DNA from: Synechococcus sp. PCC 6312
GTDB lineage: Bacteria > Cyanobacteriota > Cyanobacteriia > Thermosynechococcales > Thermosynechococcaceae
Assembly (NCBI RefSeq): GCF_000316685.1
Contig: NC_019680.1
Coordinates: forward strand, 2,357,501-2,421,500
Length of the DNA: 64,000 nucleotides
Direction: 5' to 3'
Part shown: piece after piece, positions 16,287-21,320 of the stretch
Layout of the letters: each line of letters begins with the position of its first letter
How positions within the stretch are numbered: the stretch's first letter is position 1
Made by a program: the position numbers and the translations under genes
The notes under the pieces: model-generated
What the model saw: the letters and a program-made list of their open reading frames with translations, nothing else
Told to the model about the DNA's origin: nothing
The model's database searches: none

Positions 16287-16342
16287 GCAACCGATGTAGT
16301 AAATTGAGATTGTCTTCTAGAGCAGTTGGGTTGTGGCGCGCT

Positions 16343-16642
16343 ATGCCAAATGAAACAAATAGAGTGACTCATGGCACAGCCAGTTTATTGTTTTTGTTGA
16401 CGCTCCTAAATGCCAATTCTGCCAATGCCACGGTTAACCAGGCCGAGACCTTAGTTCCTTCCCCAACTATCCCGGCCCGTTTAGCGGCGGTGCGACAACA
16501 ATTAGAGACGGCTAAGCAGCTTGCCCCCACAAGTTCAGGTGTGTTTCAGGAGAATTTACACTTGGCGGCCTGGGAAGATAGTTGGGTGAATTTTAATGAT
16601 GGAGCCTATTGGGAAGATATTTGGTCAGACTTTAGTAATTAG
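16343..16642 (+). CDS. Putative cyclophane-type RiPP precursor peptide
   Basis: A 99-residue secreted-looking peptide immediately before a radical SAM/SPASM maturase. Residues 13-30 are a hydrophobic signal-like segment ending in ANA, residues 35-73 a hydrophilic leader (RLAAVRQQLETAKQ) and the last 23 residues a core dense in aromatic-X-Asp/Asn triplets: WED 77-79, WVN 81-83, FND 84-86, WED 90-92, WSD 94-96, FSN 97-99. Such triplets are what three-residue cyclophane-forming enzymes crosslink. The leader looks like the precursors of GRRM/OscA-type systems, but the usual Gly/Arg-rich repeat tail is absent. The ATG at 16343 is preferred to the TTG at 16304. Product structure and role are unknown. 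Confidence 0.75.
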   Translation: MPNETNRVTHGTASLLFLLTLLNANSANATVNQAETLVPSPTIPARLAAVRQQLETAKQLAPTSSGVFQENLHLAAWEDSWVNFNDGAYWEDIWSDFSN

Positions 16643-16696
16643 TCAGTTATTAGTCAGTCATTAGTCATCTTTCAGGTACCTTAAATATCCCTTGAA

Positions 16697-17869
16697 ATGC
16701 TTATTTCTTCAACAGAGTTGGCAACCTTTGGCCCATTTCGACTGGTGATCATTCAACCAACGCCTTTTTGTAATATTAACTGTGATTATTGTTATCTACC
16801 TGACCGTCAATCCCGGCAGATTTTAGATTTAGATTTAATTGAACCGATCTTTACTAATCTCCTCCAGAGCCGGTTTTTGGGGCAGCACTTTACGGTCTGC
16901 TGGCATGCAGGCGAACCGTTGGCCCTTCCAGTAGCGTTTTATGGCCAGGCCCTTGAAAAAATTAACCAAATCCAGGCCCGTTACCCAGATGTTGACTGCC
17001 TGATTACCCATGCCCTGCAAACCAATGGCACCTTAATTACCCCAGCCTGGTGTGAGTTATTTCAGAAGTACCAAATCTCAGTCGGTGTCAGTATAGATGG
17101 CCCCGCTTTTTTACACGATGCTCACCGGCAAACCCGCACTGGCCTGGGAACCCATGCAGCAACCCTGCGCGGCATTCAGCATCTCCAGGCCTGGAACATT
17201 AACTTTCATACGATTACCGTCCTAACCCAAGAAACCTTACACCATCCCCAGGCCCTCTTTGACTTCTTTTGGGAGGCAGGAATTCATAATATTGGGTTTA
17301 ATGTTGAGGAAATTGAAGGAGCCCATGCTCAATCCAGTTTGCAAGGGGATACAGAAGAGTTATATCTCGAGTTCATGGAAACATTTTGGCACCTAACCAA
17401 ACAAACCCAAGGAAAATTGAAGGTACGGGAATTTGATCGAATTAGTGAGTGTCTCTATACCCAAAAACAGCTATCCCGGAATCAGTTGTGTACCCCCTTT
17501 GCAATGGTCAATATTGATGTGAATGGTAACTTTTCCACCTATTCACCGGAATTGTTAGGCATGACCAGTGATGATTATGGGCGGTTTATTCTAGGCCATG
17601 TTCAGACGGATTCCTTTGAGGCTGCTTGCTTCACCCCGAAGTTTGCTCAAATCTATGCCGATATCCAGGCCGGGGTAGTCGCTTGTCGAGACAGTTGTGA
17701 TTATTTTGATATCTGTGGTGGGGGCGCGCCTAGTAATAAGTATTGGGAACATGGAACCTTTCAAGCGACAGAAACTCTCCATTGCCGCTACACGCAAAAA
17801 TTGCTCCTAGATTTGATTTTGGCTGATGTAGAAAAGAGCCTAGGGCAAGCAACAGTTAAATTCCCATAG
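16697..17869 (+). CDS. Radical SAM/SPASM peptide maturase, GrrM/OscB-like
   Basis: A 390-residue radical SAM enzyme. The AdoMet-binding cluster motif C-X3-C-X2-C is C25, C29, C32 (CNINCDYC). A WHAGEPL block follows, as in the GrrM family, and the SPASM region near the C-terminus has CRDSCDYFDICGGGAPSNKY plus a final HCRY Cys, binding auxiliary iron-sulfur clusters. Relatives crosslink aromatic side chains of precursor peptides to the beta-carbon two residues on. It begins 54 bases after the precursor stop, on the same strand, and no transporter or protease follows. ubiA lies 215 bases downstream and appears unrelated; I see no gene in that spacer. Confidence 0.88.
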   Translation: MLISSTELATFGPFRLVIIQPTPFCNINCDYCYLPDRQSRQILDLDLIEPIFTNLLQSRFLGQHFTVCWHAGEPLALPVAFYGQALEKINQIQARYPDVDCLITHALQTNGTLITPAWCELFQKYQISVGVSIDGPAFLHDAHRQTRTGLGTHAATLRGIQHLQAWNINFHTITVLTQETLHHPQALFDFFWEAGIHNIGFNVEEIEGAHAQSSLQGDTEELYLEFMETFWHLTKQTQGKLKVREFDRISECLYTQKQLSRNQLCTPFAMVNIDVNGNFSTYSPELLGMTSDDYGRFILGHVQTDSFEAACFTPKFAQIYADIQAGVVACRDSCDYFDICGGGAPSNKYWEHGTFQATETLHCRYTQKLLLDLILADVEKSLGQATVKFP

Positions 17870-19697: not shown

Positions 19698-19882
19698 AGG
19701 AGAAATATCCTTGAAATGATCACCTCTCTTAGTGTGACGCACTTTGGGAAGTTCCTCAGGGTGAATCTATTTTTCGCAGATCGGCATCATCCCCAGGATC
19801 AAAAGCCAAATGAACCAAACCTGCGGGGAAGCAGTCTTTAATCTATGTAGGCTTTGATGAGGCAACCCGCTTGATCGACACC

Positions 19883-20476
19883 ATGCCCCAGGTTGACTAT
19901 GGCCCGGTTGATGATTGTCTAGGGGAAACAGCAGTAGCAGATCCAGATTGGGAGATTATTCTCTCGATTTTGGCGGGACAACCGTCACAATTTCGGCTGC
20001 TTTATCGGCGGCATCAGCAACGGGTTCGGGCGTTGCTCTTTCAACTCTGTGGCCCCTCTGCTCTGGATGATTTGGTGCAGGAAGTTTTCTTACGGGCCTG
20101 GAAAGGTTTACCCCGCATGGAACACCGGGCCAAATTCACGACTTGGCTCTATCGGATTACCTGTAATGTTGCCAGTGACTTCCGCCGCCAGGCCGGGAAA
20201 CGTCGCCAACAAGCTGAAACGCTCCAATACCAGGCTCACACGCTCACCCCAGCTCCTGATTTGTCGGATCTCCATTACCAGGATTTGGTTCAGCGGGGTC
20301 TAGCTGTGTTGAAAGCAGATCAACGGACTGTCCTAGTACTCCACGATCTGGAAGGGTTAGCCCAAAAAGATGTCTCGGAAATTTTGCGGATTCCGGTCGG
20401 TACAGTTAAATCACGCCTGTTTCATGCCCGCCAGAGCCTGCGCCAGTTCCTATACCAGGAGGGGATCGCTCTATGA
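19883..20476 (+). CDS. ECF-type RNA polymerase sigma factor
   Basis: A 197-residue sigma factor with region 2 (FRLLYRRHQQRVRALLFQLCG...DDLVQEVFLRAWKGL, about residues 35-75) and region 4 (LVLHDLEGLAQKDVSEIL, then VGTVKSRLFHARQSLR, about 145-185), without region 3, as in extracytoplasmic-function factors. It probably directs a stress regulon in the cell envelope. Its stop codon overlaps the start of the putative anti-sigma gene in an ATGA junction, and a Spy-like periplasmic gene follows. An upstream TTG at 19871 would add only four residues. Autoregulation is likely for this group but I cannot point to the promoter. Confidence 0.9.
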   Translation: MPQVDYGPVDDCLGETAVADPDWEIILSILAGQPSQFRLLYRRHQQRVRALLFQLCGPSALDDLVQEVFLRAWKGLPRMEHRAKFTTWLYRITCNVASDFRRQAGKRRQQAETLQYQAHTLTPAPDLSDLHYQDLVQRGLAVLKADQRTVLVLHDLEGLAQKDVSEILRIPVGTVKSRLFHARQSLRQFLYQEGIAL

Positions 20477-20817
20477 TGCCCCCAGAGGACACCCACTCGT
20501 CCCAGTTGCGCCAATTTCTGCGCCGCCATCAGCCCGTGCCTCCCCCTGCCTTAGGTCATTTAGAAATGCAGATTATGGGAAAAGTCCTCAATGAGGCTCC
20601 AACTCGGCAAGGGCAGCGGGTCTGGTTCTGGGGCCTGTTGAGTTTGCTGATTGTGGGCAGTGGGGGCCTGGTAACGACTCAACTGCTCCGGCCACAAGCT
20701 CTAACAGCGAGCGAACTTTCCGAGTTGGATATCTATGTGGCAGATCGTTGGGAATCTCTGTTCAGCACCGCTGAAGAACCCACGCCCACTACAATTTTTA
20801 GTCCGTCTCTGGACTAA
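20473..20817 (+). CDS. Putative membrane-bound anti-sigma factor
   Basis: A 114-residue single-pass protein. The N-terminal cytoplasmic part (about residues 1-48) is followed by one hydrophobic segment (about 49-68) and an acidic outer domain. There is no zinc-binding HxxxCxxC motif. Its identity as an anti-sigma factor is inferred from its position: the start ATG overlaps the sigma stop by four bases (ATGA), and the size and topology fit. A second ATG immediately follows at 20476. Confidence 0.7.
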   Translation: MMPPEDTHSSQLRQFLRRHQPVPPPALGHLEMQIMGKVLNEAPTRQGQRVWFWGLLSLLIVGSGGLVTTQLLRPQALTASELSELDIYVADRWESLFSTAEEPTPTTIFSPSLD

Positions 20818-20846
20818 TCATGTTTATATTTTATGAGGACATTCCT

Positions 20847-21320
20847 ATGTGGAAAAGAAACACATCTCTTTGGGTCTTGGCAGCTATTTTAGCGATGCCT
20901 GGGACTAGTCTCATTCCCGCCTTTGCCCAGGACAGTTCACCCTCTCCCGTGATTCCTAATCGCCCAAGCCGACCAAATCGCCCGAACTTGAACTTGACCC
21001 CTGAGCAAGCGAGTCGTATGCAGGCTGTCCGGGAGAAGTATAAGGGCCAGATGACCCAAGCTCGGGAACAATTAAAACAAGCTCGGACGGAACTGCGGCA
21101 ACTAATGGTGAATGGTGCATCTGAAAGCCAGGCCCGGGCTAAGTTTCAACAGGTACAACAGCTAGAAAGCAAAATGGCAGAATTGCGCTTCCAAACCATG
21201 CTGGAAATTAATGCTATTCTTACCCCCTCCCAACGGCAACAACTGGCCAGCCAAATGGAGCAACGGACAGGGAGGAATCGTCTCCAACGGTTGGAGGGGC
21301 AACCGGAGCAGGGAATGTAG
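20847..21320 (+). CDS. Spy/CpxP-like periplasmic protein
   Basis: A 157-residue exported protein. It has a signal peptide (MWKRN, hydrophobic core, then PAFA cleavage before QDSS), a Pro/Asn/Arg spacer, then long helices with two LTP-type elements (LNLTPEQASRMQ and ILTPSQRQQL), the LTXXQ signature of the Spy/CpxP family. Known relatives are envelope chaperones or metal-stress sensors. The ATG at 20847 is preceded by GAGGACATTCCT; an ATG nine codons upstream would spoil the signal peptide. Third gene of the sigma/anti-sigma module, so plausibly its target or sensor. Confidence 0.8.
   Translation: MWKRNTSLWVLAAILAMPGTSLIPAFAQDSSPSPVIPNRPSRPNRPNLNLTPEQASRMQAVREKYKGQMTQAREQLKQARTELRQLMVNGASESQARAKFQQVQQLESKMAELRFQTMLEINAILTPSQRQQLASQMEQRTGRNRLQRLEGQPEQGM

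Follow-up and report, generated by a model that had tools for sequence, protein, structure and literature searches.

A short gene in the 64-kb window (the whole stretch of DNA that was analysed) encodes a peptide with an acidic C-terminal core, and the gene that follows it encodes a radical SAM protein. This raises the question of whether the two genes form a RiPP cassette and, if so, whether its core belongs with the Gly-rich substrates of the GrrM/OscB family or departs from them. We estimate a probability of roughly 0.8 that the locus is a two-gene triceptide-type RiPP cassette, in which the enzyme would bind the leader and install up to six rings in a peptide that would be exported (Table 1).

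Table 1. Coordinates of the cassette features in the window; L003 is the orthologous locus in genome G017.
Feature	Position	Strand	Basis
Precursor peptide gene, 99 aa plus stop	16343..16642	+	ORF; L003 ortholog with matching start and core
Signal-peptide-like N-terminus (MPNETNRVTHGTASLLFLLTLLNANSANA), possible cleavage after ANA	16343..16429	+	Sequence reading; GrrA-type precursors similar
Helix-like leader motif TIPARLAAVRQQLETAK, candidate enzyme recognition site	16466..16516	+	Leader HMM
23-residue core WEDSWVNFNDGAYWEDIWSDFSN, six aromatic-X-Asp/Asn triplets	16571..16639	+	Sequence and 21/23 identity with L003
Core repeat unit 1, WEDSWVNFND	16571..16600	+	Shares 5/10 aa and 22/30 nt with unit 2
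Core repeat unit 2, WEDIWSDFSN	16610..16639	+	Identical in L003
GrrM/OscB-family radical SAM peptide maturase, 390 aa	16697..17869	+	TIGR04261; PF04055; AlphaFold2 model
Radical SAM cluster motif CX3CX2C (C25, C29, C32)	16769..16792	+	Kept in 124/126 aligned relatives; gaps in the other two
C-terminal auxiliary-cluster cysteines C330, C334, C340, C363	17684..17785	+	Kept in 125/126 aligned relatives; gap in the other

The precursor terminates in ...LAAWEDSWVNFNDGAYWEDIWSDFSN followed directly by the stop codon, with residues 77-99 constituting the core. The first-pass annotation had described six aromatic-X-Asp/Asn triplets within 23 residues, in a core that is acidic, short, poor in Gly and ends at the last triplet, and all of these features were recovered. 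The triplets WED, WVN, FND, WED, WSD and FSN do not overlap, each core Trp and Phe residue has Asp or Asn at position +2 (Asp in 4 of 6), Gly accounts for 1 of the 23 residues, the charge is about -6 and the open reading frame stops at FSN. Tyr89, the sole remaining aromatic residue in the core, has Glu at +2. Six triplets were reached in 16 of 200,000 shuffles of the core, and no other 23-residue stretch in the six frames of the window contains four or more, stretches overlapping the core being excluded. Two features go beyond the first-pass annotation: the signal-peptide-like start of the leader, and a two-fold repeat within the core, in which a three-triplet unit occurs twice with GAY in between and neighbouring triplets are 0, 1 or 3 residues apart. 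The mass of the core is 2881.16 Da as a free peptide and would be 2869.06 Da with six rings. The ATG codon at 16343 is in frame with a TTG codon upstream at 16304; we assigned the start to the ATG because the relative in L003 begins similarly (MPNNNG.., as compared to MPNETN.. in the window). An 11-bp repeat, AGTAATTAGTC, is present in three copies at 16634-16667, from the last core codons to beyond the stop codon, and a similar AGTAAT-rich sequence is located 3' of the core in L003.

The leader resembles those of the GrrA family. A comparable hydrophobic start is present in GrrA-type precursors, and the motif TIPARLAAVRQQLETAK agrees with the ..VEARLSRIxxxLRE.. pattern of GrrA leaders. The window leader obtained a modest score of 17.3 bits with an HMM built from 60 other leaders, as compared to 15.2 bits for the top of 3,991 scored shuffles. 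The signal-like N-terminus suggests that the peptide is exported following modification. Despite the family-like leader, the precursor falls outside the GrrA/OscA1 model TIGR04260, with a score of 19 bits that is below the cut-off of 31, and the core lacks the Gly-rich repeat of these precursors. The L003 precursor gave no match to this model.

The first-pass annotation had also placed a GrrM/OscB-like maturase beside the precursor, and this assignment is borne out. The maturase reading frame begins 54 bp 3' of the precursor gene and its product matches TIGR04261 over the full length (positions 1-363 of 363) with 541.3 bits, as compared to a cut-off of 310 and to far lower scores for TIGR04496, TIGR04269 and NF041707. 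AmcB was the next best family, with a score below its own cut-off, and a PF04055 match was also obtained. The AlphaFold2 model has a mean pLDDT of 91.8, and the closest solved folds are anSME (Z 34.0) and the leader-bound ChlB complex (Z 33.2). The window enzyme is thus a member of the GrrM/OscB family. Triceptide precursors are recognized by such triplets beside an enzyme of a cyclophane-forming family, and the window precursor has six triplets and an adjacent GrrM.

We searched 29 genomes of the order and 390 genomes of the class Cyanobacteriia for related loci, and identified a single orthologous gene pair, L003 in G017, a genome of another genus. The enzymes are 69% identical and the whole precursors 54% identical, while the core in L003, WEDTWINFNDGAYWEDIWSDFSN, is identical at 21 of 23 residues and retains all six triplets, including FND. 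The first-pass annotation had named the loss of the triplets in homologs as an outcome that would speak against its reading; since all six are conserved in the sole ortholog found, the reading held up in this computational test. In this one comparison, between the window and L003, dN and dS for the core were estimated to be 0.04 and 0.75, respectively, and dN for the enzyme to be 0.25. The excess of conserved codons in the core is weak, with 18 of 21 codons identical and 14.1 expected (P about 0.03), and is given no weight here. An in-frame TGA noted in L003 proved to be its ordinary stop codon.

The acidic cassette is rare, but intact and conserved, with a nearly invariant core in just one other genome found. 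In a search with a precursor profile, the WED core was identified in 2 of the 390 genomes (the window genome and G017), and the precursor co-occurs with a close enzyme (69% identity) in these same two genomes. GrrM-type enzymes with E-values of 1e-60 or better are present in 64 of the 390 genomes, of which those outside the two are at most 57% identical to the window enzyme. Remote precursor matches (L089-L093) had E-values of 0.002-0.01, all with scores near 20 bits and mostly within long open frames. A contig scan with exact 8-residue patterns recovered 61 loci, all with at most 53% identity; these patterns are insensitive, and as all of them are missing from the known ortholog, absence in that scan means little. 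A viral scan recovered no relative.

Both genomes contain a second, Gly-rich system at a separate locus. In the window genome it consists of two Gly-rich precursors and a GrrM that is 52% identical to the window enzyme, and in G017 of a Gly-rich precursor, a GrrP-like protein and a GrrM that is likewise 52% identical. The acidic cassette is therefore an additional, second system in these genomes. Since the pairing of enzyme and precursor in the window rests on adjacency, the presence of Gly-rich precursors and a second GrrM in the same genome allows for another explanation, namely that the Gly-rich precursors of the second locus are the substrates of the adjacent enzyme, or that the core is left unmodified and functions as an acidic peptide after export. 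We consider this to be highly improbable. The order of the precursor and enzyme genes is identical in the window and in G017, although no flanking genes are shared between the 18 kb fetched from G017 and the window, which shows that the pair stays together. Moreover, the two enzymes form a fully supported clade (100/100 in a 57-row enzyme tree) apart from the enzymes of the Gly-rich loci of both genomes, and Asp or Asn at +2 is kept for all Trp and Phe residues.

We examined whether acidic cores occur elsewhere in the family. The first-pass annotation had stated that known systems carry Gly/Arg-rich repeats, which is too strong, as Gly-poor, Asp-rich cores are present in the cyanobacterial loci L095, L116 and L127-L129. 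The L095 core, FDDFDDFDDFDDSPGFDDVFFDDFDDFADSWIDD, is paired with an enzyme that is 57% identical to that of the window, the L116 core, WNDWGPWDDWNDW.., is of the WNDWNDW type, the L128 core begins WNDWNDWSNW.. and those of L127 and L129 are of the WDDWNDW.. type. Cores in the fetched loci were read by looking for aromatic-X-Asp/Asn, and because the scan itself sought this pattern, the result is not a demonstration that Asp/Asn is conserved. Like the window locus, these five have Gly-poor, mostly acidic cores with near-contiguous triplets and enzymes outside the Gly-rich clade, but their repeat units are different, their enzymes are at most 57% identical to that of the window, and some have Pro/Asp-rich tails past the last triplet. 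The core at L095:1438-1749, beside a GrrM gene, is extremely acidic (FDDFDDFDDFDD.., charge -17) and exceeds that of the window in this respect. Across lineages, the charge of GrrM precursor cores ranges from about -17 to +13, with Lys-rich, strongly basic cores in the L151-L157 group. At L172:6022-6294 (genome G147), a precursor with a GrrA-like leader (21.5 bits) is located beside a GrrM gene and ends in ..EEWKKGPYDKSL, without an aromatic-X-Asp/Asn core; either a different kind of core or a frameshift in the gene could account for this.

In the 57-row tree, one clade with a support of 96/98 unites the labelled Gly-rich cyanobacterial loci; a few rows in and around this clade are without an identified precursor, and the enzymes of the Gly-poor or acidic cyanobacterial loci branch outside it. 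The enzyme of the FDDFDD system in L095 groups with those of the window and L003 with weak support (69/83). More than one GrrM match was obtained in five of the 390 genomes (G000, G017, G175, G351 and G366), each of which carries one or more Gly-poor, Asp-rich cores. Of the genomes with a single match and an identified core, the main example of a Gly-poor one is L113. As the five genomes come from two families, the association between multiple copies and Gly-poor cores is a lead only. Precursors from L095, L116, L128, L129, L102 and L113 scored below the TIGR04260 cut-off or gave no match (L127 was not scanned), and the three Gly-rich precursors tested all passed.

An acidic, Gly-poor core is thus unusual but not unique, and the window core is an uncharacterised variant that stays within a known class and does not define a new one. 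The locus shares with OscA/OscB (GrrA/GrrM) the adjacent precursor and enzyme genes, the aromatic-X-Asn/Asp triplets and a signal-like leader with an RLxxI/VxxxL motif. It differs in that the core is Gly-poor and near-contiguous, with a charge of -6 and 4 of 6 triplets ending in Asp, and in that the precursor scores below TIGR04260 and the enzyme lies outside the Gly-rich clade. The triceptides of XncB, MscB/FxsB, YxdB, HaaB and YhhB are similar in their three-residue cyclophane chemistry and SPASM-type radical SAM enzymes, but involve other enzyme families, motifs and hosts. No description of an acidic core was found in our literature search; the primary triceptide papers were outside its reach and may hold one.

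For OscB, a review lists crosslinks from C7 of Trp to the beta-carbon of Asn or Asp, and for XncB or OscB a crosslink from C4 of Phe to the beta-carbon of Asn, with Phe-X-Asp absent from the OscB linkages named (PMC11002830). Third-position Asp is thus already documented for OscB. Five of the six core triplets (the four Trp triplets and FSN) are of the reported kinds and FND would be an extension, so that the core is consistent with a triceptide in which up to six cyclophanes, each of three residues, are formed. We propose that the leader is bound by the adjacent enzyme, probably via the RLxxVRxxL helix, and that the enzyme generates a 5'-deoxyadenosyl radical. Hydrogen would be abstracted from the beta-carbon of the third-position Asp or Asn in each triplet, and this carbon would be joined to the ring of the first-position Trp or Phe. 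The product would contain up to six non-overlapping rings, all six lowering its mass by 12.09 Da, with a Gly-Ala-Tyr linker between two units of three rings each, and after export of the modified peptide the leader would be removed.

Modification could also be partial, for example at the Trp triplets only, with Phe-X-Asp or packed neighbours left open, which would yield a mixture or fewer rings. We regard this as a serious minority possibility, given the lack of Phe-Asp among the reviewed OscB crosslinks and the close packing of the window triplets, those of Gly-rich cores being more widely spaced. Against it, all six triplets including FND are kept in the ortholog, and directly adjacent triplets occur in other GrrM cores as well. 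It is improbable that a different bond, at another ring position or Asp carbon, is formed on the Asp-rich triplets to give a non-standard triceptide, as the OscB Trp-X-Asp crosslink via the beta-carbon has already been reported. In favour of such a bond are three positions at which the enzymes of the window and L003 share residues that are unusual among the 126 aligned relatives: C265, which is otherwise found only in the L095 enzyme paired with FDDFDD; Y282, which is rare and also present in that enzyme; and R296, where half of the other relatives have Asp. The residues typical of the family at these positions are N, F and D, respectively.

The neighbourhood of the cassette (a tRNA synthetase, an endonuclease III-like protein, a UbiA prenyltransferase and a peroxiredoxin) does not point to a role, and the cassette is not flanked by a protease, transporter or GrrP gene. 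The window genome has two matches to GrrP (TIGR04262), both away from the cassette. No promoter or terminator above chance was found at the cassette. Elsewhere in the window, at 19871-21320, a gene for an ECF-type sigma factor precedes a small ORF and a gene for a Metal_resist/LTXXQ (Spy/CpxP-like) periplasmic protein. It is conceivable, albeit rather unlikely, that the acidic groups of the exported product serve to bind cations or basic surfaces. Tentatively, and at less than even odds, all six triplets would be crosslinked into a compact acidic peptide of two three-ring units with the same layout, the enzyme would come from a lineage of GrrM proteins, including that of the FDDFDD system, specialised for Gly-poor cores rich in Asp, and the polyanionic triceptide, once exported, would differ in role from the Gly-rich ones of the same cell.

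These results show that cyanobacterial GrrM systems are not confined to Gly-rich substrates, with some lineages having short, acidic and packed cores, and that the curated precursor model TIGR04260 misses all of the acidic or Gly-poor precursors tested. The small, near-spacer-free core lends itself to testing Phe-Asp crosslinking and the number of adjacent strained cyclophanes that a single enzyme can install, and the presence of two GrrM enzymes with very different cores in one cell makes it possible to test directly whether specificity lies in the leader or in the core.
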